Source: Tannerella sp. (GTDB taxonomy: Bacteria; Bacteroidota; Bacteroidia; Bacteroidales; Tannerellaceae). From it: a stretch of DNA of 11,652 nt. The position numbers and the translations under genes are program-made. The stretch spans positions 1 through 11,652 of the forward strand of contig JAITPL010000186.1 of assembly GCA_031289445.1 (NCBI GenBank). Direction: 5' to 3'. Positions 1 through 11,652 of the stretch are shown here, in pieces. Numbering within the stretch: position 1 is the stretch's first letter; every line of letters begins with the position of its first letter. Under the pieces are notes generated by a model. It worked only from the letters and a program-made list of their open reading frames with translations, had not been told where the DNA came from and did no database searches.

Positions 1-1350
1 TTCGAACGCGCTGTTCCCTTACTGAAAAAAGCCCTGCACGACAAGCCCACCCATTTTGCCGACCGCTCCGATTTGAGGGCGAGAACGCTTCTTGCCGAAT
101 ATTATGCCGAAAACAATCGGCTCGATTCTTCCGACTACTATTACCGTTCGTTGTATGACGACCGTAATCCCGTGCGCTTCCGTCCGATTTATGACATAAT
201 AGCGGCTGTGGGCATTGCCGGCAATATGGTTCGTCGCGGCAATTACAGCGAAGCCCTGCCCCGTCTGCAACGCTGGCTGCCCGAAGCCCAAAAGGAAAAC
301 AGAACCAACGATATATTCAAGATTTACCTCGCCATGGGCGAATGTTACCTTGCCGAAAACCGTACCGCGCAAACCCTGACGACAATCGACTCCGTCCATA
401 GTCTGATGCGGCAATACCCCCAATTCGATTTTCGCAAGGAAAAACTTTTCGACCTGATATATCGCTACCATTCTACCTTGGGCGACATAAAACAGACACA
501 GCTATACGTCGATTCCATGCAAACGGCTATCAACAGTCGCAGGGAAGCAACCAGCTCCCTGATAATTCTTCGTGCAGAGCAGGAAACGTTTGAAACGGAA
601 AAGGAACTGCGCGACAAACAGATTCAAATGCACAAGACGCGCAACCTCTTTACCTTCGGCGGATGCCTTTTATTAGCCCTTGCACTGGGAATATGGATAT
701 ATTACAGCCGGAAAATCGTGCGGAAAAACCGCGAACTCGTCCGCAAAAACCAGCAATGGGCAAATGTCGTCACGGTTTCGGCGGCGAATGCAGGGGACAT
801 GGAGGATATGGAGGCGGACATAGCGAACGTGGCGGAGAATACGACGGGCATGGCGGATATGGCGGGCATGGCGGAGGATACGGAGAACGTGGCGGCGAAC
901 ATGGCGGGCATGGCGGATACGGCGGACATGGCGAATACGGCGAATATGGAAGACGCTCTGCCGGAAGACGCCGGAGAAAAAACAGCGCCGGCTCTTCCGG
1001 ATACCTCGGACAGTATGATTATGGGCGAAATAGAGATACTGATAGCCGGAGGGCTTTACAAGGACAGTAATCTTTCGCTTGAAATGCTCGCGGAAAAAAC
1101 CGGTCATATCCAGAATTACATCTCAAAAGCCATCAACCGTTGCACCGGTAAACATTTCAAAGCCTACGTCAACGAATACCGTATAAAAGAGGCTATACAT
1201 ATCCTGTCGGACGCCAAATACGCGAATCTTTCCATTGACAGCCTCGCTTATGAATCGGGATTCAACGACCGGACAATTTTTTATCGCGTGTTCAAAAAAA
1301 CAACCGGCCTGTCGCCTTCCGACTTCAAAAAGAACGCGATCAAAAAGTGA
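1..1350 (+). CDS. TPR / transmembrane / AraC-type helix-turn-helix regulator, 5' partial
   Basis: The frame is open from base 1, so the true start lies upstream; a TTG at 73 is internal. Of 449 visible residues, about 1-195 are helical hairpins of TPR type (for example the stretch around MGECYLAENR), followed by a short charged helix. Bases 646-705 encode one membrane helix (rich in Leu, Ala, Ile, Trp) followed by basic residues. A low-complexity linker (bases 781-951) comes next. Bases about 1060-1341 encode an AraC-family DNA-binding domain with two helix-turn-helix units, the first around LSLEMLAEKTG and the second around LSIDSLAYESGFND followed by the family-typical FYRVFKKTTGLSPSDFKK ending. 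The architecture matches Bacteroidota regulators that sense through a periplasmic TPR domain and bind DNA on the cytoplasmic side; ligand and targets cannot be read from the sequence. There is no histidine kinase or receiver domain. The gene is convergent with the minus-strand operon. Confidence 0.9.
   Translation, partial: FERAVPLLKKALHDKPTHFADRSDLRARTLLAEYYAENNRLDSSDYYYRSLYDDRNPVRFRPIYDIIAAVGIAGNMVRRGNYSEALPRLQRWLPEAQKENRTNDIFKIYLAMGECYLAENRTAQTLTTIDSVHSLMRQYPQFDFRKEKLFDLIYRYHSTLGDIKQTQLYVDSMQTAINSRREATSSLIILRAEQETFETEKELRDKQIQMHKTRNLFTFGGCLLLALALGIWIYYSRKIVRKNRELVRKNQQWANVVTVSAANAGDMEDMEADIANVAENTTGMADMAGMAEDTENVAANMAGMADTADMANTANMEDALPEDAGEKTAPALPDTSDSMIMGEIEILIAGGLYKDSNLSLEMLAEKTGHIQNYISKAINRCTGKHFKAYVNEYRIKEAIHILSDAKYANLSIDSLAYESGFNDRTIFYRVFKKTTGLSPSDFKKNAIKK
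781..951 (+). repeat. Degenerate GGCGGAYAT-like repeat inside the regulator gene
   Basis: About 170 bases are built from degenerate units of 9 bases such as GGCGGATAT, GGCGGGCAT and GGCGAATAC. In the gene's frame they encode a monotonous Met/Thr/Val-Ala-Asp/Gly/Asn peptide (for example GMADMAGMAED) between the membrane helix and the DNA-binding domain. The +3 frame through the same bases reads a Gly-His-Gly-Tyr-rich peptide, and the minus strand is also open, which explains the long shadow frames here. The tract preserves the reading frame, so the regulator is intact across it. It probably arose by slippage expansion of a linker. Confidence 0.8.
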
Positions 1351-1384
1351 TTAGTGATTAATGATTAGTGATTAATGATTAGTG
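1348..1384. repeat. Heptanucleotide array TGATTAR x5 starting at the regulator stop codon
   Basis: Five tandem 7-base units, alternating TGATTAG and TGATTAA, run from 1348 to 1382 followed by TG. The first three bases are the stop codon of the AraC-type regulator. Because 7 is not a multiple of 3, the array places stop codons in every plus-strand frame. Two other genes in this window end in similar but different 7-base arrays. Confidence 0.85.
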
Positions 1385-1640
1385 CCCCGATGGGTAACAG
1401 GGTGCGGGTGATTCCGTTTTCTATTGATATGAATCTCCGTCGGGGATGTACCGTATTAATTCTATGTTACCGCAGTTAATAAGTTTTGCCCCTTCGGGCA
1501 GAGGTATGAAGAGCGTTTGCTCCCGCAGGTTGCGGCTTACGCCTTACCTGCGGTTATGAAAATACTGCCCTTTCGGGCAGCCTCTGCAAACAATTTATTT
1601 CGCAAAATAATAGCGCCTCAAAAAAAGCTTTAACCCTACC
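1385..1640. other. Gene-free spacer with several inverted repeats
   Basis: No credible reading frame is present. Inverted pairs include CCCCGA (1385-1390) with TCGGGG (1440-1445) and GGTAAC (1393-1398) with GTTACC (1466-1471); these cross each other and would form a pseudoknot if both paired. Both are only 6 bp and may be chance. The 1487-1587 part is described separately. The wording of the sequence resembles multi-copy intergenic repeats of Bacteroidota, but I cannot confirm a copy number from one window. Confidence 0.4.
1487..1587. repeat. Cluster of hairpins able to form a cloverleaf-like fold
   Basis: Two near-identical 15-base copies, TGCCCCTTCGGGCAG (1487-1501) and TGCCCTTTCGGGCAG (1566-1580), each form a small hairpin. 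Between them lie GAGC-GTTT-GCTC (1511-1522) and an 8-bp stem CCGCAGGT (1523-1530) with ACCTGCGG (1546-1553). GCAGAGG (1498-1504) is perfectly complementary to CCTCTGC (1581-1587), enclosing three of the hairpins in a closed junction. The 7-bp closing stem competes with the first hairpin for bases 1498-1500. On the minus strand the hairpin at 1565-1580 is followed by TATTTTC, so it could also end transcription of the comF operon. It may be a repeat element, a terminator region or a structured RNA. Confidence 0.5.
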
Positions 1641-1675
1641 TTCTAATTTCTAACTTCTACTTTCTACCTTCTATC
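1641..1675. repeat. Heptanucleotide array TTCTANN x5 at the comF stop codon
   Basis: Five tandem 7-base units TTCTAAT, TTCTAAC, TTCTACT, TTCTACC and TTCTATC fill 1641-1675. Read on the minus strand each unit carries TAG, and the first TAG met by a ribosome (1673-1671) is the stop codon of the ComF-like gene. The following units supply TAG in all three frames. The unit sequence differs from the arrays at 1348 and 10987, so the period and the position are shared and not the sequence. Confidence 0.85.
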
Positions 1676-2366
1676 TTTGTCCCGCGATTGACAATGCAAA
1701 AATGCTGATGGTGATGTTGGGAACGGCAACAAGGGCATCGACGCAGGCCGAGATAGTAGAGCCGGTAGTCATTACGTCGTCTATCAACAGTACGTGCTTG
1801 CCGCTGAGCGCTTCGATGGCGGTCGCCATAAAGATATTTTCGACGTTGAGGCGGCGGTCATAAGCATTCTTGCGGGTTTGAGTTTTGGTGTTGACAACAC
1901 GGCGCACTGCTTCCGTTTCAACACTGCAACCATAGACCGCCGCCATGCCTTGCGCTATACAGGCCGACTGGTTGTATCCGCGTTTGCGCTCTCTCTTTGG
2001 ATGGAGGGGGACAGGGATGATAGTGTCGATAGAAGCGAAATAACCCGCATTTTTAAGCTCGGTAGCGGCTATGTTGCCAAGATACACGGCCAGCGATTTG
2101 TTGCCGTAATATTTTAGCGCGTGAACAAGTTTTTGCGTTACCCCCTCCTTCTCGAAATACAAATAGGCCGTTACTTCATTGAGCTGTGAATATCCTGATA
2201 ATAAAATCCTTGCATTATTGGCTTTGTATAGGTGATAATCGGTTGTGGGTAGGTCGCAGAAGCAGTCGAGGCAGACAAACTTCTCGCCCTCCACTAATAT
2301 TTTTTTGCAGTTAAGACATAATTCGGGATAGAACAGGGCGAACAAATACTTCAGCAATTTAATCAT
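1671..2366 (-). CDS. comF: ComF family phosphoribosyltransferase-fold protein
   Basis: The 231-residue product has the ComF layout: an N-terminal zinc-ribbon-like pair of CxxC motifs (Cys17/Cys20 and Cys32/Cys35), then a type I phosphoribosyltransferase domain with the PRPP loop VLLIDDVMTTGST at about 192-204. The segment PVPLHPKRERKRGYNQS (about 118-134) is also characteristic. In Bacillus and Haemophilus, ComF relatives are needed for DNA uptake; in Bacteroidota the role is not established and no other competence gene is nearby. I chose the ATG at 2366; a TTG six bases upstream in frame is less likely. The ATG overlaps the recX stop codon by 8 bases, indicating translational coupling as last gene of the operon. 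The length is normal and all key motifs are present. Confidence 0.92.
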   Translation of the reverse strand: MIKLLKYLFALFYPELCLNCKKILVEGEKFVCLDCFCDLPTTDYHLYKANNARILLSGYSQLNEVTAYLYFEKEGVTQKLVHALKYYGNKSLAVYLGNIAATELKNAGYFASIDTIIPVPLHPKRERKRGYNQSACIAQGMAAVYGCSVETEAVRRVVNTKTQTRKNAYDRRLNVENIFMATAIEALSGKHVLLIDDVMTTGSTISACVDALVAVPNITISIFALSIAGQR

Positions 2367-2832
2367 AATCAACGTTTTTAATCATTATCTTCAGTGTCTT
2401 GACGATGAGAGGCGTCTCGAAACCCCGTGATGAAGCAAACCGCATCAGCTTGGCGAACAGGTCTTGCGGCGAGCTGCTTTTGACCGTGCGTCGCTTGCCG
2501 ACTAACAAATTACGCAGTACGGACATGTATTCCTCGTCGTCGATACCGCTTATCGCATCCTCATAGATGGCGGGTTTGATGTCCCTAATTTTCAACTCGT
2601 AAGCGATTTTGATTCGTCCCCAGTGATTGAAGCGAAACTTGTCGTTTACGAAAGCGCGGACGAAACGGCTTTCATCAACGAACTTTTCATCCGATAGCCT
2701 CCGTATAATCCGTTTCCCGGCGTCCGGCGACAGACCGGCGTCGCGAATCTTGCGGCGCAGGTCGAACAGGCATCTTTCAGCCTGCGAACAATAAGCTGCC
2801 AGTGCGGCTAAAACCTCTGCTTCACTCTTCAT
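2359..2832 (-). CDS. recX: RecX family regulatory protein
   Basis: This 157-residue, highly charged helical protein has the RecX pattern of three-helix repeats: an N-terminal AxxYCSxAERCLFDLRRKI-type helix, a middle LSDEKFVDESRFVRAFVNDK segment with the FNHWGRIKIAYEL stretch typical of the family, and a C-terminal repeat around LFAKLMRFASSRGF. RecX proteins bind RecA filaments and limit or modulate their activity in homologous recombination and the SOS response. No recA is present in the window. The ATG at 2832-2830 overlaps the prmC stop (ATGA), so it is translated in a coupled way after prmC. The length is usual for the family, and no frameshift or truncation is visible. Confidence 0.9.
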   Translation of the reverse strand: MKSEAEVLAALAAYCSQAERCLFDLRRKIRDAGLSPDAGKRIIRRLSDEKFVDESRFVRAFVNDKFRFNHWGRIKIAYELKIRDIKPAIYEDAISGIDDEEYMSVLRNLLVGKRRTVKSSSPQDLFAKLMRFASSRGFETPLIVKTLKIMIKNVDYD

Positions 2833-3740
2833 AGTCTATCCTGTTTTTCCCTGACAATACAATCCATTGCGGACAATAACTCTTTGCAGAGTTTTGCGGT
2901 TATAAACCTGTTTTTCCCTGACAGGTCAAGATGAACTTTTATGTCCGTAAATCCTTTCCCTGCAAGTAAATCGACCGTCCCGGCGCTATGCAGCGGATTG
3001 ATTTCGAGAAAAAGGCGTCCGTCCGGCGACAGTCTTTGGAGGGCAAAGTCGGCAATCGAACGGTAATAAAGCAGGGGTTTGGCGTCAGGAACAAACAGCG
3101 CCCCGTGAGGCTCATAATCAAGAACGTTAGCCGTCATGGCTGCCTTCTCGCTTTCGCAAACGTATGGCGGATTGCTGACAATAATGTCGAAACCGCTTGA
3201 GAACGCCGCGAGCATGGCCCCGGTTTGCAAAATATCTGCGTTAGCGAAGTCTATATCAACATTGTTCAGAACAGCATTTTTGCGGGCGGTAGCAAGTGCG
3301 GCTTCCGAGACGTCAATGGCTGTTACCCCGGCATTTAATATATGCTTGGCAAGCGTGACGGCGATGCAGCCGCTACCTGTGCCTATATCAAGGATTGAAA
3401 CATGCTTGCGGCTTGCTTGCGACGATTTGATAATCATATCGACCAATTCTTCGGTCTCGGGGCGGGGTATAAGAACAGTAGCGTCAACCTTGAAGGGCAG
3501 GCTGTAGAACTCCGTCTCTCCAAGCACATACTGCAAAGGCTCCATTGTTTTAAGCCTCTCGACTGTCCGGTGTATCGCTTCCTTTGCGACGGCAGGCAGT
3601 AGAGCCTCCCTGTTCAATACCTGACGACTGTACGGCATCCCGCATATAGACGATAATATCACACGGATGAAGCTGCGAATCTCATCCTCCGGATAAATAT
3701 CTTTCAGACTGTTGAAAATGTACTTCTTCGTTTCCTGCAT
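2829..3740 (-). CDS. prmC: Release factor glutamine N5-methyltransferase
   Basis: PrmC methylates the glutamine of the GGQ motif in peptide chain release factors, using S-adenosylmethionine, which raises termination efficiency. The 303-residue product shows the helical N-terminal domain (1-80), the IPRPETEELV motif (91-100), the SAM-binding loop DIGTGSGCIA (118-127) and the catalytic, glutamine-binding NPPY motif (190-193). The frame continues upstream to a TTG at 3869, but that part overlaps the preceding gene and lacks homology-like sequence; the ATG at 3740-3738 gives the usual N-terminus and length. The gap to the upstream TPR gene is 25 bases and the stop overlaps the recX start. The C-terminal ~20 residues after the conserved core are slightly longer than in many homologues. 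It acts in the cytoplasm. Confidence 0.95.
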   Translation of the reverse strand: MQETKKYIFNSLKDIYPEDEIRSFIRVILSSICGMPYSRQVLNREALLPAVAKEAIHRTVERLKTMEPLQYVLGETEFYSLPFKVDATVLIPRPETEELVDMIIKSSQASRKHVSILDIGTGSGCIAVTLAKHILNAGVTAIDVSEAALATARKNAVLNNVDIDFANADILQTGAMLAAFSSGFDIIVSNPPYVCESEKAAMTANVLDYEPHGALFVPDAKPLLYYRSIADFALQRLSPDGRLFLEINPLHSAGTVDLLAGKGFTDIKVHLDLSGKNRFITAKLCKELLSAMDCIVREKQDRL

Positions 3741-3765
3741 TATGTCGCAAAAATAGTCAATTATA

Positions 3766-4599
3766 TCAGAACGATTCTTTGATACAGCGTTCGACAGTTT
3801 CTTTGTCGTAACCAAGCTCGCCTGCCGTTTTGAAATCGACGGCAGCGGATTCTTTCTCGTACTGCGCAAGTTTTATCCGCCCGCGCAGCATGTACATCTC
3901 GGCCGTAGGCTCCTTGACGGCTGCAAATACCTTGTTTATGTCCGTCAAGGCAAGCCTGTTGCGTTTCATCAGATAATACAACTCGGCGCGTTCTTCGAGC
4001 AGTCTTGCGTTATCCGGCACCTTGTCGGCAAGGTAGTTGAAGATGACTTCGCTCTCGTCATAGTTGCCACGCGCCATTTCGAGAATGGCATATCCGAAGC
4101 GGCCTAAAAACGTATCCTTGTATTTCTCTATTATAAGGTTGAAATCGGCTTGGGCTAATTCGTGGTCTCCGGTGTTGATGTAGAGCAATCCCCGGTCGTA
4201 GAGCGCCTGTTCGTGCAGGGGATATTTTTCCAGCAGCTTGTTATAGTCAGCCAGAGCCTTGAAAATCTCATTCATCTCGGTATAAAGCTCGGCGCGGTTT
4301 AACAGTATCAAAGCATCTTCGGGACGCTGACTGAGGGCTGCCGAATATGACACTTCAGCATCTTCAAACTTGCCTTGACGACGTTGTATTGTGCCGAGAT
4401 TGGTCAGCAGCGCGAAGTTGAATTTGTTGGCCGGCTCAAGCCGCATCGCCGCCTTCAGACTTTCCTCTGCCGCCGGTAAAGCGCCTGAATCGGCATACTC
4501 GTAACTCCTTTTCAACATATCTTCATAAGTCTGCGCCTTCACCCCAATCGTTGAACATAACGCACTTATTATCAATATAAAAGCAAAAATTATCTTCAT
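3766..4599 (-). CDS. Exported tetratricopeptide repeat protein
   Basis: The 277-residue product begins with a signal peptide (MKIIFAFILIISALCSTIG followed by VKA, likely cleavage site) and then consists almost entirely of TPR helix pairs, about six or seven, with typical spacing and residues such as NLGTIQRRQGKFEDAEVSYS, LYDRGLLYINTGDHELAQAD and LLEERAELYYLMKRNRLAL. TPRs are protein-protein interaction scaffolds; this one would act in the periplasm. The in-frame codons upstream of 4599 include the promoter, so the ATG at 4599-4597, about 23 bases after the TACCTTTG signal, is the start. It is the first gene of the tpr-prmC-recX-comF operon. The partner is unknown and no catalytic domain is visible. 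Confidence 0.88.
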   Translation of the reverse strand: MKIIFAFILIISALCSTIGVKAQTYEDMLKRSYEYADSGALPAAEESLKAAMRLEPANKFNFALLTNLGTIQRRQGKFEDAEVSYSAALSQRPEDALILLNRAELYTEMNEIFKALADYNKLLEKYPLHEQALYDRGLLYINTGDHELAQADFNLIIEKYKDTFLGRFGYAILEMARGNYDESEVIFNYLADKVPDNARLLEERAELYYLMKRNRLALTDINKVFAAVKEPTAEMYMLRGRIKLAQYEKESAAVDFKTAGELGYDKETVERCIKESF

Positions 4600-4621
4600 A
4601 AATATCTTTATTAAAAGTAGC

Positions 4622-4629
4622 CAAAGGTA
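4622..4629 (-). promoter_or_regulatory. Bacteroidota -7 promoter element TACCTTTG for the tpr-prmC-recX-comF operon
   Basis: On the minus strand these bases read TACCTTTG, a full match to the Bacteroidota primary sigma -7 consensus TANNTTTG. The ATG of the TPR gene lies 23 bases downstream, giving a short 5' leader. No clear TTG-type -33 element is seen at the expected distance. Confidence 0.75.
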
Positions 4630-4749
4630 CAAAATAAATTGAATTTTCAGGCACGGAGGACTTTTAGTTTCTCCGGAGTAGAGCACATCGCACAACAGCC
4701 CAACGTAGTCAATTTAAGGAAAAGTCACCGGGAAATAGCATTATTGGCA

Positions 4750-4795
4750 GACATTCCAAGTCTCGCAGACTTGGAATGTCTTCGAGACATGTCTT
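4750..4795. repeat. Perfect 15-bp dyad and adjoining 10-bp palindrome between divergent genes
   Basis: AGACATTCCAAGTCT (4750-4764), a CGC spacer and AGACTTGGAATGTCT (4768-4782) form a perfect inverted repeat. Three bases later AGACATGTCT (4786-4795) is a 10-bp palindrome sharing the AGACAT/ATGTCT ends. The site lies between two divergent promoters, upstream of both genes, so it is not a terminator for either. It could be an operator, or more probably a dispersed intergenic palindrome. As RNA it would form a very stable hairpin. Confidence 0.8.
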
Positions 4796-4845
4796 CTAAT
4801 CAATCCATCATCATGCGAAATCCACTCTGTTTGCTAAAAAAGTAT

Positions 4846-4853
4846 TACCTTTG
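4846..4853 (+). promoter_or_regulatory. Bacteroidota -7 promoter element TACCTTTG for the WbsX/GH99-like gene
   Basis: TACCTTTG is a full match to TANNTTTG and lies 18 bases before the ATG at 4872. Transcription would begin around 4858-4862, leaving a leader of only about 10-14 bases. A more upstream in-frame TTG falls inside this promoter and cannot be the start. Confidence 0.75.
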
Positions 4854-4871
4854 CGGCAAAATTGTTATTAT

Positions 4872-6059
4872 ATGAGAAATATTGGATTTGTTTATTTAGT
4901 ACTTGTGTCGATGGTTTTGGGGGCTTGCAACCCTCAGAAGAAGTCGGACAAAGCGAAACAGCATTACGATGTGGCGGCATATATCTGGCCTGCCTATTTC
5001 AACGAGCCTCGTTTTGGGGATATGGGCGTTTTCCATGACGGAAAGGGCGAATGGGAGGCTATTTACAACGCCAAACCCAAGTTTGAAGGTCATCGGCAAC
5101 CACGCGAACCGCTGTGGGGCTATTTCGACGAGTCAGCTCCCGAAATGCAAGAGAAAATCATCGCTACAGCTCTTGACTACGGCGTCAATACCTTTATTTT
5201 CGACTGGTATTGGTACGACGACCGCCCTTTCCTTGAAGACGTGCTTAACAAGGGCTTCCTGAAGGCTAAAAATAATGAAGAAATGAACTTTTACCTTATG
5301 TGGGCTAATCATACACATAACTCCTACCTCGACTATACCAACCCGGATAAAAACAAGATTTATTGGGAAGGTGGCGTTAGCCGTGAGATATTCGACCGCC
5401 TGACAGACCACGTGATAAAGGATTATTTTTCGCGCCCCAACTACTACAGGATAGACGGCAAGCCGGTATTTGCCATTTATGAGGTAAGCACGTTTATCAA
5501 TGGCATTGGCGGCGAACAGGCAGCTCGAGAGGCTCTCGACGCTTTCCGCAAGAAATGCGTCGCAGCCGGATTGCCGGGCGTTCATATACAGGCTATTTTG
5601 TGGACTATATTACCCGAAAGCCTTGCCGCAACTCCGGGCGATAAGCATCAAACGGAGAACACGCTGATGCAAAAACTTGGATTCGAGAGCCTTACGCACT
5701 ATCAATGGTGTCATTATGTGCCTACCGGCCAACCGTATCTTGCGTGGGGCGAAAAGGCGCAGGCACAATATCCCGATTTTGACAAGGCGTTCACCCTGCC
5801 GTATTATCCGCATGTTTCCATCAGTTGGGATCCCAATCCGCGTTTCCCTGAAGGGACATATCCCTGTGTGCAGGACGCTACTCCCGATCAATTCAAACAA
5901 TTCCTGCTGAAAGCAAAAGAATATGTCGATGCCCATCCTCAACAGACCCCATTGATTACCGTCAATGCGTGGAACGAATGGGCCGAGGGCAGCTATCTCG
6001 AACCGGATACCGAATATCAATACGGTTTTCTGGAAGCCGTCAAAGAAGTATTCAAATAG
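4872..6059 (+). CDS. WbsX/GH99-like lipoprotein, putative glycosidase
   Basis: The 395-residue product starts with a lipoprotein signal peptide (MRNIGFVYLVLVSMVLGAC, lipobox LGAC with the lipidated Cys at about residue 19), so it should be anchored to a membrane facing the periplasm or the surface. The rest is a single TIM-barrel-like domain of the WbsX family, related to glycoside hydrolase family 99 (endo-alpha-mannosidase type). Key signs are the opening YDVAAYIWPAYFNEPRF segment, IFDWYWYDDRPF, the WANHTHNS stretch and the C-terminal NAWNEWAEGSYLEPD motif, where Glu369 and Glu372 have the E-x-x-E spacing of the GH99 catalytic pair. Substrate cannot be assigned; mannose-containing glycans are a guess from the family. 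It has its own promoter and no SusC/SusD, sulfatase or glycosyltransferase neighbour, so it appears as a single gene. Confidence 0.85.
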   Translation: MRNIGFVYLVLVSMVLGACNPQKKSDKAKQHYDVAAYIWPAYFNEPRFGDMGVFHDGKGEWEAIYNAKPKFEGHRQPREPLWGYFDESAPEMQEKIIATALDYGVNTFIFDWYWYDDRPFLEDVLNKGFLKAKNNEEMNFYLMWANHTHNSYLDYTNPDKNKIYWEGGVSREIFDRLTDHVIKDYFSRPNYYRIDGKPVFAIYEVSTFINGIGGEQAAREALDAFRKKCVAAGLPGVHIQAILWTILPESLAATPGDKHQTENTLMQKLGFESLTHYQWCHYVPTGQPYLAWGEKAQAQYPDFDKAFTLPYYPHVSISWDPNPRFPEGTYPCVQDATPDQFKQFLLKAKEYVDAHPQQTPLITVNAWNEWAEGSYLEPDTEYQYGFLEAVKEVFK

Positions 6060-6153
6060 TCATAAATAATTTGTTCATAACAGTTTGCAGCGACTATTCG
6101 AGTAATTCGGCCGGTATTTTCCCGACGGTTGCCATTTATTAAAATATTATTAC

Positions 6154-6161
6154 TACTTTTG
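6154..6161 (+). promoter_or_regulatory. Bacteroidota promoter TACTTTTG for the helicase-cinA pair
   Basis: TACTTTTG matches TANNTTTG, with a TTG at 6129-6131 in roughly the -33 position (22-base spacing). The helicase ATG follows 20 bases downstream. There is no gene between 6060 and 6181, and no strong terminator hairpin after the preceding gene. Confidence 0.72.
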
Positions 6162-6181
6162 TCTCATTAAATTAATAAGAT

Positions 6182-8380
6182 ATGAGTTTTATAGCAGACG
6201 AAAACAATGAAGTTTTCGAGATGGCGACAATGTTTGTCAATGAGACCTCGGAGCATCTTTTCCTGACCGGTAAGGCAGGAACAGGCAAGACGACTTTCCT
6301 GCGCTATATCCGCGAACATACGCATAAGGTGGCGGTAGTGGCGGCGCCTACCGGTGTGGCAGCTGTCAATGCGGGAGGCGTAACGCTTCATTCGCTCTTT
6401 CAACTGCCGCTTGAGCCTTTCGTGCCGGGCTTCCGCTCACAAAAAAAACCATACAGTTTCAGTAAGGCCAAACTTGATTTGCTACGCCGGCTGGAACTGC
6501 TTATTATCGACGAAGTGAGTATGCTGCGGGCAGATATTCTTGACGCTATCGACAGTACATTGCAAAAAATACGGCGTACTTATAAACCTTTCGGAGGAGT
6601 GCAGATATTGTATATCGGCGACATGTTTCAGTTGCCGCCGGTTGTCAAGGACGAAGAATGGGAGATGTTGAAACCTTATTATAAAAGTTCGTTTTTCTTT
6701 CATTCACAGGCTTTTGGCAAGACGCAACCGGTGTATCTCGCCCTGAAAAAAGTCTATCGCCAAAGCGAACAGTCGTTTATCGACCTGCTTAACAATGTGC
6801 GCAATAATTGTTTGACAGACAGTGATTTTAAAGCATTAAATTCTCGTTTCCTGCCTAACTTCACTCCTTCGGCTGCGGATAAATATATCACCCTGACTAC
6901 GCATAACTACAAGGCAGACCGCATCAATCGTCAGGAGTTGGACAAACTGTCCTCAAGGGAATACAAACTGTCGGGCAAGGTTGAGGGTGATTTTCCCGAA
7001 TACGCCTTGCCGACCGACCTGCAACTGAGCATGAAGGAGGGCGCACAAATAATGTTTATCCGCAACGACTCCGAAGGACGCTATTACAACGGCAAGATAG
7101 CGATTGTCAGCGGTATCTTCGGCGACCGCGTCGAGGTGCGTATGCCCGAAGGCGACGTGATAACCGTTACGCAAGATATATGGAAGAATTTCCGCTACTC
7201 GCTCAACAAGGAAACAGGCGTTATGGACGAGGAAGAGATAGGCGCATACACGCAGTATCCGCTGCGGCTGGCTTGGGCGGTAACGATACATAAAAGTCAG
7301 GGATTGACTTTCGAAAAGGCGATTATTGATATAGGTTCGTCGTTTGCGCCCGGTCAGGCTTATGTGGCGCTGAGCCGCTGCACTTGTCTCGAAGGAATAG
7401 TGCTGAAAACGCCTGTCGCCCCCGACAGCATTATGACCGACCCCCATGCTATTGATTTTAGCAGGTCTGAAAAGGCTATCGACGAGTTGCGGGGCATACT
7501 TGAAGACGGCAAACGCAAGTTCTGGCGCGAGCGGCTACTGCTGTATTTCGACTGGAAGCCGATGTTTACGTTTTTATGGGAGTTGGAAAAACTGCTTGAG
7601 GACAAGGTTTCGGAGGAGTATGACGCCGGACGCGGCCTGCTCGAAACGTTTCGCAAGTCGGTGCGCGAGATGGACGAGGTGAGCGGGAAATTTAGCGGGC
7701 AGTTGAAAGCGCTTCTGGCTCAGGAGGCTCTCACCGGCGATATCAGCGCTATACGCGAGCGTTGCCGCAAGGCTATTGTTTATTTTCACGAGAACGTTAC
7801 CGACAAGATTCTGTCGCCCTTGCGCATTTATACTTCAAAGATGCGTCAAATCAAGCGTGCGCGTACTTTTTACAAGCATCTCGCAGACCTTGAAAGCGAT
7901 GTTCATCTGTTTCTCGAAAATATGAAGCGCGTGCGATATAACAATGTTCCGCTGGCCGAGGATTTGGAAGTTGTCTCCCTGCCCCAAACGGCTGTCGATG
8001 AGCCTCAATCCGTACAGCTTTCATCCTCATATAAACTCAAAACGAAGAAGACGCCGGGAGAAAAAGCGCCCAAAATTGATACCCGCGCTTTGTCGCTTGC
8101 ACTGTTCAATTCGGGTCTTCCGATAAAGGAAGTAGCGGCGCAACGCTCCCTTGCCGTCAGCACTGTCGAAGAACATCTTTCGGAATTTCTCGGTACGGAA
8201 ATAAGGATAGACCAATTACTTGAAAAGGATGAACTCGCGGAAATATCCGGACTTGTACGCCCGTTACTGCACCTCGAAAAGCCTGCATTTAAGGAGGTTT
8301 ACGAGCGGGGCGGCGGTAAATACAGCTACGGCAAACTGCGAATGGTTTTCCGTTATTTGAAATCTCTAAACGGTCAATAA
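6182..8380 (+). CDS. PIF1-like superfamily 1 DNA helicase with C-terminal helix-turn-helix
   Basis: The 732-residue protein carries the SF1B helicase motifs in order: Walker A GKAGTGKTT (30-38), motif Ia AAPTGVAA (54-61), Walker B LLIIDEVSML (106-115), motif III GDMFQLPP (146-153) and the C-terminal TIHKSQGLTF (368-377) followed by YVALSRC (394-400), as in PIF1 and RecD. Such enzymes translocate 5'-3' on single-stranded DNA and resolve structures such as G-quadruplexes. Residues about 430-640 are long charged helices, and about 645-732 form a helix-turn-helix module of the kind found at the C-terminus of RecQ-like and PIF1-like helicases (LFNSGLPIKEVAAQRSLAVS). The start follows the promoter by 20 bases. 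The stop shares one base with the cinA start. There is no mobile or phage context, so a housekeeping role in replication or repair is likeliest. Confidence 0.93.
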   Translation: MSFIADENNEVFEMATMFVNETSEHLFLTGKAGTGKTTFLRYIREHTHKVAVVAAPTGVAAVNAGGVTLHSLFQLPLEPFVPGFRSQKKPYSFSKAKLDLLRRLELLIIDEVSMLRADILDAIDSTLQKIRRTYKPFGGVQILYIGDMFQLPPVVKDEEWEMLKPYYKSSFFFHSQAFGKTQPVYLALKKVYRQSEQSFIDLLNNVRNNCLTDSDFKALNSRFLPNFTPSAADKYITLTTHNYKADRINRQELDKLSSREYKLSGKVEGDFPEYALPTDLQLSMKEGAQIMFIRNDSEGRYYNGKIAIVSGIFGDRVEVRMPEGDVITVTQDIWKNFRYSLNKETGVMDEEEIGAYTQYPLRLAWAVTIHKSQGLTFEKAIIDIGSSFAPGQAYVALSRCTCLEGIVLKTPVAPDSIMTDPHAIDFSRSEKAIDELRGILEDGKRKFWRERLLLYFDWKPMFTFLWELEKLLEDKVSEEYDAGRGLLETFRKSVREMDEVSGKFSGQLKALLAQEALTGDISAIRERCRKAIVYFHENVTDKILSPLRIYTSKMRQIKRARTFYKHLADLESDVHLFLENMKRVRYNNVPLAEDLEVVSLPQTAVDEPQSVQLSSSYKLKTKKTPGEKAPKIDTRALSLALFNSGLPIKEVAAQRSLAVSTVEEHLSEFLGTEIRIDQLLEKDELAEISGLVRPLLHLEKPAFKEVYERGGGKYSYGKLRMVFRYLKSLNGQ

Positions 8381-9633
8381 TGAATGTCGAAATTATTACT
8401 ATAGGCGACGAGCTTCTGATAGGGCAGGTTGTCGATACCAACTCGGCCTGGATGGCTAAGGCGCTTAATGACAGCGGATTTAAGGTTGTGCGAAAAGTAA
8501 CGGTAGGCGATGTGGAAGAAGATATTCTGCATGCTGTCGGCGAAGCTCGAAGTCGCGTGCAGACAGTACTGTTGACCGGCGGACTTGGCCCTACGCGCGA
8601 CGATATTACTCTACGTTCCCTTTGCAGCTATTTCGATTGCTCCCTGCAATTTTCGGACGAGGTCTATGCCAATATAGAAAATATTTTTGGCCGCAAGGGT
8701 CGTAAGATGAACGAGCTGACACGCCTGCAGGCGCTTGTGCCCGACAAGGCTGTAGTTATTCAAAACGCTGTCGGTACAGCGCCCTCTACGTGGTTTGAGC
8801 AGGACGGCGTCGTGCTTGTATCCCTGCCCGGAGTGCCGGCTGAAATGAAGTGGCTGATGGAAAACGAGATAATACCGCGTTTGAATAAAAGATTCAATCG
8901 GGATATTTTTATACGGCACCGGACAAGTTGGGTTTCAGGTTATACCGAATCGGCTCTTGCGCAGTCTCTGGCTTCGTTTGAGGATAATTTGCCCGATAGC
9001 GTCAAACTGGCTTATCTGCCCCAGCCTGGTATCATCCGCCTCCGCCTCTCTGCTTATTGCAAGGAAGAACGCTTGGCCGAAGAACTTGTTGAGGGCTTGC
9101 AGAAACAACTTTCGCAGATACTCGGAAGCAACATTATCGCCGAAGAAGATACCGGTTTGGAGATCGTAGTAGGTGAAAAGCTTCGCAGGTGCGGACTGAC
9201 TTTGGGCACGGCCGAGAGTTGTACCGGAGGCGCTATAGCCGCGCTGCTTACATCCGTTCCCGGCAGCTCGGATTATTTTCGCGGCAGCGTGGTGGCATAC
9301 TCCAACGATGTTAAAAAAAATGTGCTGCATGTTGCAGAAAGCGATTTGCAGAAGTACGGAGCTGTCAGTCGCCAAGTGGTAGAGCAGATGGCGCAAGGCG
9401 CATTAACGGTGACAGGCTGCGATTATGCCCTTGCCACATCCGGCATAGCAGGCCCCGGTGGAGGCAGTAATGAAAAACCTGTCGGCACGGTTTGGATAGC
9501 CGTAGCCAATAGGGATACGGTCATCTCTCAAGAGTTTTATTTCACCACCCTCCGCGACCAAAACATACAGCGTGCAGTGAGCGCCGCCCTGCTTATGCTA
9601 CTCGAAAGATTGAAAGCCGATTTTCCTCTGTAG
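8380..9633 (+). CDS. cinA: CinA family protein (MoaB-like domain plus nicotinamide-nucleotide amidase)
   Basis: This 417-residue protein has both CinA halves. The N-terminal MogA/MoaB-like domain (1-170) starts MNVEIITIGDELLIGQVVDT and includes TGGLGPTRDD (66-75), and in characterised relatives it acts as an ADP-ribose or CoA pyrophosphatase. The C-terminal PncC domain (about 258-415) has AESCTGG (278-284) with the catalytic serine, and TSGIAGPGG (353-361) with the following KPVGTVWIA; PncC deamidates nicotinamide mononucleotide to nicotinate mononucleotide in pyridine-nucleotide recycling. Full length and all motifs are present. Its ATG overlaps the helicase stop by one base (TAATG), so the two are almost certainly co-transcribed and translationally coupled. 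The link to competence seen in Gram-positive bacteria should not be assumed here. Confidence 0.96.
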   Translation: MNVEIITIGDELLIGQVVDTNSAWMAKALNDSGFKVVRKVTVGDVEEDILHAVGEARSRVQTVLLTGGLGPTRDDITLRSLCSYFDCSLQFSDEVYANIENIFGRKGRKMNELTRLQALVPDKAVVIQNAVGTAPSTWFEQDGVVLVSLPGVPAEMKWLMENEIIPRLNKRFNRDIFIRHRTSWVSGYTESALAQSLASFEDNLPDSVKLAYLPQPGIIRLRLSAYCKEERLAEELVEGLQKQLSQILGSNIIAEEDTGLEIVVGEKLRRCGLTLGTAESCTGGAIAALLTSVPGSSDYFRGSVVAYSNDVKKNVLHVAESDLQKYGAVSRQVVEQMAQGALTVTGCDYALATSGIAGPGGGSNEKPVGTVWIAVANRDTVISQEFYFTTLRDQNIQRAVSAALLMLLERLKADFPL

Positions 9634-9681
9634 AAAAAACTTTTTCCATTCCTCGCACTTGTAAATCTCAATATTTTAATG

Positions 9682-9689
9682 TACTTTTG
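9682..9689 (+). promoter_or_regulatory. Bacteroidota promoter TACTTTTG for the GH20-like gene
   Basis: TACTTTTG matches TANNTTTG, and a TTG at 9659-9661 sits 20 bases upstream in the -33 position. This is the best complete promoter in the window. It decides the gene start: the ATG codons at 9679 and 9691 lie inside or directly after the element, so 9709 is the first ATG well inside the transcript. Confidence 0.78.
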
Positions 9690-9708
9690 TATGAAAAATA
9701 AATTCATT

Positions 9709-10797
9709 ATGAAGAAAATTTGTATAGTTGTTTTAATTGCAATCTGGGCAAATGCCGCATCGGGACAGAAGCGTATCGACTCCCTCATGTCGGTGCGCGG
9801 GTTGGCTATTGCCGCGCCCTCAGCCAAAAACATTGACCTTTTCACCAAGTTTGTAAATGAAGAGTTGGGGCCGGCGCATTTCAATCTGTTGATTTTGAGG
9901 ATAGACTGGAACTATGATTACAAGTCGCATCCCGAACTGCGCGACCCCAATCCCCTGACAGAGGCGGATATCAAGAAGATTGTGGACGTCTGCCTCAAGT
10001 ATCGCATACGCATCGTGCCGCAAATCAACCTGCTCGGTCATCAGTCGTGGGCTAAACAGACAGGTAACCTGTTGCGCGTGTATCCCGAATTTGACGAGAC
10101 GCCGCACGTCAAGACCGAGGACTATACCGGTTGGCCTAACCCCGACGGACTGTACTGCAAGAGTTACTGTCCGCTGCATCCGTCTGTGCATAAGATTGTT
10201 TTTGCGCTTGTTGACGAGATAACGGAGGTTTTCGAGACGGATTTGTTTCATGCCGGTATGGACGAGGTCTTTTACATCGGCGACGATAAGTGTCCACGCT
10301 GCAAGGGTCGCGACAAGTCGGAGCTTTTTGCGGGCGAGGTTACGCGGATACACAATCATCTGGCCGAGAACGGCAAGCGGCTGATGATATGGGGCGACCG
10401 CCTTATCGACGGCAACGCTACAGGCATAGGCGTCTGGGAAGCGAGCGGCAACGACACGCATCGCGCTATCGACATGATACCCAAGGACGTTTTTATCTGC
10501 GACTGGCATTATGAGCGTCCCGACCAGACAGCTGTTTATTTTGCCATGAAAGGCTTCGATGTGGCGACTTGTCCGTGGCGCAAACCGGATGTAGCCGTCG
10601 AGCAAGTCAACGACATGCTGCGTTGGCGCAAAAGTTCTACGCGGCAGATGTCGCAACATTTTCAGGGAATAATCGAAACCGTATGGTCGGGCGCCGACGG
10701 TTTCCTGAAAAACTATTACGATACGCAGGCAGACCTCAAGCAGGACTCTGACGTATTAACTCTCAAACGATTGATAGAAACATTTAAAACATTGTAG
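9709..10797 (+). CDS. Secreted GH20-like glycoside hydrolase
   Basis: The 362-residue product starts with a signal peptide (MKKICIVVLIAIWANAASG, cleavage near Gly-Gln) and then a single barrel domain of the type annotated as family 20 glycosylhydrolase. Evidence is INLLGHQSWAKQ, corresponding to the D-x-P-G-H segment after the fourth strand; FHAGMDEVFYIG with Asp185-Glu186 in the place of the GH20 catalytic pair; a CDWHYE segment; and a C-terminal TVWSGADGF tryptophan motif. GH20 enzymes remove terminal N-acetylhexosamines by substrate-assisted catalysis. The usual GH20 N-terminal domain is absent and the classical HxGGDE is HAGMDE here, so the substrate may differ. I chose the ATG at 9709 because earlier in-frame ATGs are within the promoter. 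The small gene at 10800 follows after two bases. Confidence 0.82.
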   Translation: MKKICIVVLIAIWANAASGQKRIDSLMSVRGLAIAAPSAKNIDLFTKFVNEELGPAHFNLLILRIDWNYDYKSHPELRDPNPLTEADIKKIVDVCLKYRIRIVPQINLLGHQSWAKQTGNLLRVYPEFDETPHVKTEDYTGWPNPDGLYCKSYCPLHPSVHKIVFALVDEITEVFETDLFHAGMDEVFYIGDDKCPRCKGRDKSELFAGEVTRIHNHLAENGKRLMIWGDRLIDGNATGIGVWEASGNDTHRAIDMIPKDVFICDWHYERPDQTAVYFAMKGFDVATCPWRKPDVAVEQVNDMLRWRKSSTRQMSQHFQGIIETVWSGADGFLKNYYDTQADLKQDSDVLTLKRLIETFKTL

Positions 10798-10799
10798 TT

Positions 10800-10985
10800 A
10801 TGAGCTTTGCAGGACACGTATTGGACATGATTCGTCGCGACAAGGAAAATCGCGAGCTTCGCAAGAATCTGAAATCAAAATTCGACAGGAAAAAATCGTA
10901 TCTGAAAGGCGCCGAACGCTCGACGGAATTATCCGAAGAAGAATTCAAAAGAATTTATCCCAGCATCGAGGAAATGAAGGAATAA
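10800..10985 (+). CDS. Small charged conserved-type protein, 61 residues
   Basis: The product starts MSFAGHVLDMIRRDKENREL and is strongly basic in the middle, acidic at the end (ELSEEEFKRIYPSIEEMKE), and predicted to be helical, with no signal peptide, membrane helix or cysteines. I recognise this type as a small Bacteroidota protein of unknown function, with the MIRRDKENREL stretch as its most conserved part; I cannot assign an activity. The ATG comes two bases after the stop of the GH20-like gene, which places both in one transcript. Codon use is like that of its neighbours. It ends with TAA one base before a heptanucleotide array, and a strong hairpin 30 bases further probably closes the transcription unit. 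Confidence 0.75.
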   Translation: MSFAGHVLDMIRRDKENRELRKNLKSKFDRKKSYLKGAERSTELSEEEFKRIYPSIEEMKE

Positions 10986-10986
10986 A

Positions 10987-11007
10987 TGTGAATTATGAAT
11001 TGTGAAT
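10987..11007. repeat. Heptanucleotide array TRTGAAT x3 after the stop of the 61-residue gene
   Basis: Three tandem 7-base units TGTGAAT, TATGAAT and TGTGAAT begin one base after the TAA stop. Each contains TGA, and the 7-base period places it in all three frames. It parallels the arrays at 1348 and 1641 in period and position but not in sequence. Confidence 0.75.
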
Positions 11008-11016
11008 GACTTTGTT

Positions 11017-11058
11017 GCAACGGTACTATGGATAAAACCTATCCCATAGTACCGTTGC
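11017..11058 (+). terminator. Strong 15-bp hairpin, probable bidirectional terminator
   Basis: GCAACGGTACTATGG (11017-11031) and CCATAGTACCGTTGC (11044-11058) are perfectly complementary with a 12-base loop. It lies between the end of the 61-residue gene and the 3' end of the minus-strand transposase remnant. The plus-strand tail (TTGAATTTTC) is only moderately T-rich, and upstream TTTG would be the tail on the other strand, so termination is likely but not certain. Confidence 0.6.
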
Positions 11059-11066
11059 TTGAATTT

Positions 11067-11438
11067 TCAATTAACTTTGCAGGAATCGGGCATACCTGTC
11101 CCTGCGAATTTATTCGGTATTGAACACTTCAAGTCAACTTCCGTCTTTTGATTTTCCATTATTCTTGCATTTAAGACGCTGCCAAAAACAGTTTGATATC
11201 TAAACATGAGCGCTTCATTGAGACTTCTCCGATGATAGCCGTGTGCCTGTTTCCATGATTTGGAACCGCGCAAATTAATGTGTTCCACCGCTTCATTCCG
11301 CTGTATCAAATAATCCGGCAGGGGACTGCCCCTCTTACCTTTTTGTATCACTGCGCTTTTAGGTGGCGGGATAACCTGTTCCACATCTTTACCCAAGACC
11401 TCTCCATGTCCAAACCTGTCACAGGCGCCATCCCCTGT
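11067..11438 (-). pseudogene. Truncated IS5-type DDE transposase, C-terminal part
   Basis: The minus-strand frame reads a C-terminal transposase segment of about 123 residues. It begins with GDGACD, corresponding to the second catalytic Asp in IS5-family enzymes (usual form ADGAYD), continues with VIPPPKSAVIQ (usual PPRKNAV), and contains GYHRRSLNEALMFRYQ, the Y-(2)-R-(3)-E-(6)-K signature of IS4/IS5 transposases with the catalytic Glu at 11214-11216. The last position of the signature is Gln instead of Lys. It ends MPDSCKVN, close to the usual end of these proteins. The N-terminal half (roughly 180 residues and the first Asp) is missing; the frame meets a stop at 11454-11456, next to nested CCGG palindromes. 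There is no ATG, so it cannot be expressed as a functional enzyme. Confidence 0.85.
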
Positions 11439-11482
11439 AAAACCGGTTTTATTTTACCGGTTTTGCCGGCTCACCGGTAAAA
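11438..11482. repeat. Nested AAAACCGG/CCGGTTTT inverted repeats
   Basis: AAAACCGG (11439-11446) pairs with CCGGTTTT (11457-11464), and TTTTACCGG (11452-11460) pairs with CCGGTAAAA (11474-11482). The two stems share bases and exclude each other. A central GCCGGC palindrome lies at 11465-11470. The cluster lies exactly where the transposase homology breaks off, so it may mark the rearrangement junction or be a separate element that inserted there. Confidence 0.65.
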
Positions 11483-11540
11483 CCCTGTGTTTGATAATCA
11501 AAAAAACATGTATTTACATGAATTGGAATGTTCCAATCGT

Positions 11541-11652
11541 GAATTGTCGTTTGCCAATTGACGAATGTCGTTTGCCAATCGTGGAATGTCGTTTGCCAAT
11601 CGTGGAATGTCGTTTGCCAATTGACGAATGTCGTTTGCCAATTGACGAATGT
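11541..11652. repeat. 21-bp tandem array with two unit types, running off the window end
   Basis: Units share the 17-base core GAATGTCGTTTGCCAAT and end in either TGAC (type A) or CGTG (type B). Copies are at 11541-11562 (22 bases, type A with an extra T), 11563-11583 (B), 11584-11604 (B), 11605-11625 (A) and 11626-11646 (A), then GAATGT to the end. Bases 11520-11540 resemble a diverged earlier unit. The units are contiguous without spacers, so it is not a CRISPR array. The plus frame beginning with an ATG at 11518 stays open to the end and would encode a 7-residue repeat ECRLPI(D/V); coding is possible but unproven. Confidence 0.9.

Follow-up and report, generated by a model that had tools for sequence, protein, structure and literature searches.

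Why should protein-coding genes end in tandem arrays of a heptanucleotide that begin at the stop codon itself? This question is raised by a contig of Tannerella sp., an uncultured gut-type bacterium (GCA_031289445.1, JAITPL010000186.1, positions 1 to 11,652; the whole stretch of 11,652 nucleotides is called the window below). Three genes of the window, coding for an AraC-type regulator, a ComF-like phosphoribosyltransferase, and an orphan protein, end in arrays with a period of 7. The first-pass annotation placed the stop codon inside the first unit in two cases and one base away in the third. This is what the sequence reads, and the period was recovered by Tandem Repeats Finder (TRF) in all three cases, weakly in the last. 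In a sample of the source genome, arrays of this kind fill spacers up to the gene edges, with the G-richer strand pointing outward after stop codons and, less strictly, before start codons. The edge arrays look like the trace of an undescribed repeat-spreading process, and not like a safety device for the stop of translation.

The window is contig 174 of genome G000 (1.68 Mb, 234 contigs, 61% complete). Every third contig was sampled, 78 of 234 including the window, which corresponds to 567,444 bases or about one third of the genome. A gene caller based on hexamers predicted 468 genes (88% coding). It superseded a first, crude caller, which covered 66% of the bases and missed genes. Arrays were counted with a detector at a fixed threshold of 14, and a looser set was taken at threshold 11. 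The sample contains 44 arrays of period 7 versus one each at periods 4, 5, 6, and 8. There are 11 arrays at period 9 and 10 at period 18; the multiples of 7 show 29 arrays at period 14 and 36 at period 21. One order-1 Markov shuffle contained no arrays at periods 4 to 21. Spacer DNA alone (38 kb) holds 25 arrays of period 7 versus one of period 6 and one of period 8. Tandem 7-bp units are far above chance in G000, as in heptanucleotide tandem repeats of the short tandemly repeated repetitive (STRR) or long simple sequence repeat (LSSR) kind. None of the 44 arrays lies wholly inside a gene by more than 30 nt, and some overlap gene ends; at threshold 11, one of 72 arrays is inside a gene. The median spacer is 33 bp, and several array-bearing spacers barely exceed the length of their array. 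Arrays are enriched near contig ends (9 of 44 within 300 bp, 8% expected), so long arrays are probably under-counted.

The orientation of an array was defined by G-C skew, that is, by its G-richer strand, independently of stop codons. Polarity assigned by counting stops was dropped, as finding stop-oriented arrays at stops is partly circular; the two measures agree (19/19 by stop count and 18/18 by skew for arrays leaving a stop). The counts omit the sides of tied arrays (3 start, 2 stop), sides with an incomplete or absent neighboring gene, and genes scoring below 20, which removes L139, where an array overlaps a gene end. Where the G-richer strand leaves a stop (stop-out), the array is within 12 nt of the stop in 18 of 18 cases at threshold 14. 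The distances range from -27 to +8, and 10 of the 18 arrays overlap the called gene end. Where the G-richer strand points towards a stop (stop-in), only 1 of 17 arrays is within 12 nt. At starts, the corresponding numbers are 9 of 18 for a G-richer strand that leaves the start and is antisense to the gene (start-out), and 3 of 18 for one that points towards it (start-in). Of the nine start-out arrays, seven precede the called start by 5 to 11 nt, and the other two extend over it by 33 to 38 nt. The 72 arrays of the looser set gave 25/30 stop-out, 2/27 stop-in, 10/25 start-out, and 5/26 start-in.

Monte Carlo placement was done with 30 arrays; the other 14 of the 44 either lacked two flanks or were tied in polarity. 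In 20,000 runs, the mean number of stop-out arrays was 2.7, and the 14 that were seen were reached in none. Eight start-out arrays were seen versus 2.6 expected (p = 0.00075). With positions kept and polarity flipped at random, the stop side gave p = 0.00055. The link between arrays and stop codons, which the first-pass annotation drew from three genes, is thus supported in G000 by a test of distance and placement on one third of the genome, and the arrays are not uniformly spread over the spacers. An array is present at 19 of 401 complete 3' ends (about 5%) but at fewer complete 5' ends (11 of 418); under the placement null, the excess at starts is nevertheless real. These arrays just before starts, with mirrored polarity, form a second edge that the first-pass annotation did not mention. 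Seven loci on seven contigs outside the sample, collected with the TGATTAR pattern and containing 13 arrays, showed 3/3 stop-out, 0/3 stop-in, 3/9 start-out, and 1/5 start-in.

Outward polarity at both edges implies that neighboring arrays converge. In G000, 13 pairs of arrays at most 500 bp apart converge and none diverges; 12 further pairs have the same polarity and four include a tie. Among all Bacteroidota loci read, converging and diverging pairs number 19 to 3 at threshold 11 and 13 to 2 at threshold 14, with L032 in neither list of this analysis. No neighboring arrays were found in 789 kb of loci outside the Bacteroidota list. The first two arrays of the window share one convergent spacer of 320 bp and point at each other. 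In a synteny comparison, the neighbor was conserved in 2 of 21 checks for array spacers, 16 of the 21 coming from the ComF locus, and in 0 of 6 for convergent spacers without arrays. The Bacteroidetes promoter motif lies within 80 nt upstream in 2 of 10 listed start-side arrays of G000. At L043, L044, and L047, arrays are seen by eye just upstream of sites that resemble this motif (TAnnTTTG).

Native gene ends were checked for 8 of the 18 stop-out genes (ComF, AraC, TrpB, PepD, GyrB, MetH, and two SusD). In these eight genes, no more than a few codons separate the beginning of the array from the native end, and the array either follows the stop or overlaps it. The ComF-like orthologs of relatives terminate at nearly the same position (to within a few residues), except for two loci located at contig ends. 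Among named relatives, the nearest found is the Tannerella metagenome-assembled genome (MAG) Po218_bin115, with 66% identity in the ComF-like protein. The best AraC match (58%, one congener genome) extends to residue 448 of 449. Local alignments end at residues 388-394 of 397 for TrpB in 15 congeners and at 475-483 of 486 for PepD in 18 congeners, and full-length GyrB matches in 14 congeners reach 651 of 651. The profiles of MetH, TrpB, PepD, GyrB, and the two SusD proteins extend to within a few positions of the protein ends. TrpB beyond about residue 392 and PepD beyond 483 are array-coded, and almost none of the congener alignments extends into these tails. In this way, an array can append a few residues before the next in-frame TGA or TAG. 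In TrpB (L163, 3288-3328), the C-terminal tail is array-coded, the first unit has GGA where the other units have TGA, and a later array stop closes the gene, suggesting the loss of one array stop and its replacement by a stop further along. Sequence after the ComF-like stop was readable in 27 of 29 loci of relatives. In 26 of the 27, there is no period-7 run in the first 150 bases after the stop, even at threshold 8. The exception is the congener locus L203, where a different unit (AGAATGAAGAATGATGAAT) forms a weak run that starts 2 nt past this stop.

The units of the three window arrays had been called unrelated. In the sample, however, they belong to a few recurring families, and 52 of 57 consensus units are, after rotation, TGA or TAG plus four bases. 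Among random spacer heptamers oriented alike, 32% carry TGA or TAG (38% without ties). The units are TGATTAR, TGAATAG, TGAACAG, TGAATTR, TGAYAAT, TAGAAGK, and a few singles, and families are common to stop-side and start-side arrays. Variation within arrays is mostly at positions 4 and 7 of the TGA units and at positions 6 and 7 of the TAG units. Mismatches in the TGA positions number 17/255 on the stop side, 6/217 on the start side, and 7/256 elsewhere; those in the TAG positions number 1/95, 1/44, and 4/90, respectively. The few stop-side arrays with a TAA unit have 11/57 mismatches. The stop triplet is no better kept where it is able to end translation, which disfavors a role in readthrough. 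The TGAATTR-family pattern occurs in 8 of 41 genomes, with 40 matches in G000 and none for the backward-pattern control, and the AATGAAG pattern is present in 4 of 8 genomes. For the TGATTAG pattern, the backward control gave 98 matches versus 123; it says little because TGATTAG reversed is a rotation of itself. Inspected by eye for conserved ends such as those of transposons or miniature inverted-repeat transposable elements (MITEs), the flanks of the arrays look mutually unlike.

Table 1. Coordinates of heptamer arrays and associated genes in the window and in the Prevotella genome G044.
Feature	Sequence	Positions	Strand	Remarks
AraC-type regulator gene	window	1..1350	+	5' end off contig; stop codon (TGA, 1348-1350) coincides with the leading TGA of the TGATTAG/TGATTAA array
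Heptamer array TGATTAR, 5.6 copies	window	1346..1384	+	TRF period 7; starts at stop codon
Spacer between two converging arrays	window	1385..1635	.	no array; similar motifs by eye in other spacers
Heptamer array TAGAARK, 6.0 copies	window	1636..1677	-	TRF period 7; starts at ComF-like TAG stop
ComF-like phosphoribosyltransferase gene	window	1671..2366	-	TIGR00201 comF 1.4e-26; Pfam Pribosyltran; stop codon (TAG, 1673-1671, minus strand) coincides with the leading TAG of the TAGAARK array
61-codon orphan gene	window	10800..10985	+	TAA stop 10983-10985
Short array, TGAATTR family, ~2.7 copies	window	10987..11009	+	TRF 10989-11007, period 7, score 31, weak
In-frame array in rimO	L234 (G044)	16365-16452		converging pair of two in-gene arrays
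In-frame array in hisS	L236 (G044)	10141-10173		
In-frame array in M16-peptidase-like gene	L249 (G044)	12744-12775		forms signal-peptide core LSFIIYHLSF

In the window (Table 1), the product of the AraC-type gene matches Pfam HTH_18 (2e-15), and the match reaches profile position 79 of 80. The array at its end has its G-richer strand pointing out of the gene and a 14-bp sub-period that is 100% matched in TRF. The same gene contains an in-frame minisatellite (795-946; periods 9, 18, and 21) coding for a Met/Ala/Asp-rich linker before the DNA-binding domain. The comF match of the ComF-like protein scores 93.6 bits, below the curated cut-off of 233.6. The third array, TGTGAATTATGAATTGTGAATGA, begins one base after the TAA of the 61-codon gene. 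It scores 9 in the detector, below 14, and is outside the 44; its unit family is common in G000. The 61-codon gene has no match in 25 relatives, nor in NCBIfam or Pfam. The first-pass annotation took all three genes as the last of their transcription units. This holds for the convergent pair; downstream of the third gene, the last 0.7 kb of the contig contains no called gene. A 21-bp tandem array, TGTCGTTTGCCAATTGACGAA, of about five copies (11533-11652), closes the contig, whose end may be an assembly break in this repeat. Three spacers (window 1385-1635, L116 2913-3490, and L151 1-725) have dispersed motifs in common by eye, distinct from the heptamers, such as CTATTGATATGAAT..., or ...GGTTATGAAAA following an inverted repeat.

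Arrays were also observed in other Bacteroidota. In 400 kb of an uncultured rumen Prevotella (G044, the genome of L043), there are 29 arrays. The arrays are lineage-specific, and in contrast to G000, where they are mostly in spacer DNA, 13 of the 29 are inside 12 open genes. These in-gene arrays are necessarily stop-free because the frames are open. Against solved structures from distant species, RimO and HisRS of G044 show additional residues where the array lies. Other array genes, on reading of the sequence, probably code for topoisomerase III, an isopropylmalate-synthase-like enzyme, and an M16 peptidase. Stop-out arrays of G044 are within 12 nt in 5/5 cases, with a placement null already expecting 2.7, and other named Bacteroidota loci (including L043) gave 3/4. 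Two of these three are in L046, from a Flavobacteriaceae MAG, where long GCTGGTG (10699-10841) and GTAGCAG (12541-12613) arrays lie 5 and 6 nt after stops with outward polarity. The edge rule is strong in G000 and likely in some other Bacteroidota; on present samples, it may not be general across the genus.

Heptamer repeats are known from other bacteria. The STRR heptanucleotide repeats of cyanobacteria have period 7, are lineage-specific, and lie mostly in spacer DNA, with units other than those of G000; we know of no stop-codon rule for them. Rickettsia palindromic elements survive in frame inside genes, but they are longer palindromes and not heptamer arrays. In the literature searched, with most subscription journals outside its coverage, no report of a stop-side or polarity rule was found, and the only close prior art is the description of TAACTGA direct repeats in marine Beggiatoaceae (MacGregor 2015, PMC4679880). 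According to that paper, these repeats are mostly just upstream of starts, 13 sets overlap upstream stop codons, and reverse copies occur inside open reading frames. It also mentions TAACTGA in a few Bacteroidetes, in one of which a set is right after a stop in reverse orientation. The likeness to G000 is in the heptamer unit, the stops in all frames, and the short arrays at gene edges. In the main Beggiatoaceae genome described there, however, one unit is mostly forward upstream of starts, while G000 has several units, outward polarity at both edges, and its main peak at stops. Upstream of starts, the stop-bearing strand of TAACTGA is described as sense, while in G000 the G-poor strand is mostly sense (9 start-out versus 3 start-in). 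None of the 57 consensus units of G000 is TAACTGA or its rotation. For long simple sequence repeats (Mrazek 2007, as summarized in PMC4679880), the summary gives no edge or polarity rule.

It is about an even call that the arrays represent copies of a dispersing heptamer repeat that is specific to the lineage, and that the survivors after selection fill the spacers up to the functional edges. Copies would spread by repeated copying of existing units, arrays would grow by slippage of 7 or 14 bases, and selection would retain only those copies with which the gene stays intact. Where an array overwrites the stop at the end of a gene, its stop-bearing strand would have to be the sense strand. Ahead of a start, the sense strand would be the G-poor one, which for most units is unable to spell ATG or GTG, and inside genes in-frame, stop-free copies alone would survive. 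Stops in every frame would then be a by-product of a TGA/TAG unit at period 7, and not a function. Spread with selection is favored because unlinked sites share units and the ComF stop of nearly all readable relatives has no array, and because the checked gene ends are intact and each permitted orientation is harmless in its place.

The sharing of a few units among unlinked sites makes purely local slippage insufficient, and the proposal of the first-pass annotation that slippage is tolerated only after stops is too narrow, with arrays also before starts and inside G044 genes. In a wider form, each array would originate where duplication does no harm, through slippage of 7 bases at the stop codon or directly ahead of the start, and units would be alike only because some heptamers slip easily; this form is rather unlikely. 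It fits the stop codon being a unit member in both strong window arrays, the 14-bp sub-period that shows growth in unit steps, and the different heptamer run of L203 after the stop of the same gene. Heptamers are also the commonest class among repeats of 5-11 nt in most genomes, as PMC4679880 reports from Mrazek 2007. It does not fit the recurrence, at both edges, of few units across the 57 arrays, whose variable positions mostly coincide, or the several stop-side arrays that, by eye, start 2-8 nt past the stop and are in some cases out of phase with it. The other role proposed in the first-pass annotation, the catching of readthrough, is the least probable. Selection would keep post-stop arrays as back-up stops or elements of the 3' untranslated region that intercept ribosomes after readthrough or a frameshift. 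TGA or TAG is present in most units, and period 7 places it in all frames, and TrpB is closed by a later array stop. However, TGA is equally conserved in the units before starts, and its mismatches are not fewer on the stop side. Only about 5% of genes have an array, and the ComF orthologs do without one in 26 of 27 relatives.

Several points weigh against spread with selection. Neither an agent of unit copying nor an insertion junction or copy-number polymorphism was observed, with no near-identical strain among the genomes covered, and the ComF stop is the single site at which relatives were read for the absence of arrays. When polarity is flipped, the start side taken by itself does not reach significance (p = 0.11), and the start call is doubtful in the two overlapping start-out cases. 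An array carrying stops in all frames itself defines a gene end, which weakens the 10 overlapping stop-out cases; native ends were checked in five of these, and the other five are among the 10 of 18 stop-out genes left unchecked. The congener G021 shows 0/3 stop-out arrays within 12 nt, G034 has three arrays in 270 kb (stop-out 1/1), and G014 has no arrays in 57 kb. Arrays also hug the edges in long spacers, as the window pair does and as those of L142 and L160 do within 2 nt of the stop in spacers of 253 and 853 bp, which selection on random insertions alone explains poorly. Such hugging is accounted for by polar growth, in which a nick or DNA end at the edge of a gene would serve as the origin of an outward extension of the G-richer strand. 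Another end would then be joined, and each spacer would consist of two arrays that meet head to head, as in telomere fusion. This explanation is possible but unlikely. The converging pairs of G000 agree with it, and so does the pair inside rimO of G044, where selection on polarity by start or stop is inapplicable. This pair is, however, the only one inside a gene, and the other in-gene arrays are single. It is more doubtful that, in some Bacteroidota, a telomere-like repeat-adding process extends the G-richer heptamer strand from gene edges and many spacers are head-to-head joins; the in-gene arrays, as in rimO, would then be the same event caught inside a reading frame. The nearness to edges could also be historical, if short ancestral spacers of about 30 bp received arrays and were later lengthened by other repeats. 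The median spacer and the array spacers hardly longer than their array are consistent with this, but the later insertions would have had to be nearly always on the 3' side of the G-richer strand to leave 18/18 stop-out arrays, which makes this history very improbable.

In many bacteria, heptamers reportedly make up the most frequent class of longer microsatellites, for which no explanation is generally accepted, and the edge and polarity rule provides a concrete handle on them. The rule predicts the sites of new copies, and it shows that overlap with a stop and the addition of residues to proteins are possible. Annotators should note that, in Bacteroidales, a C-terminal tail or an insertion within a gene can be coded by a repeat.

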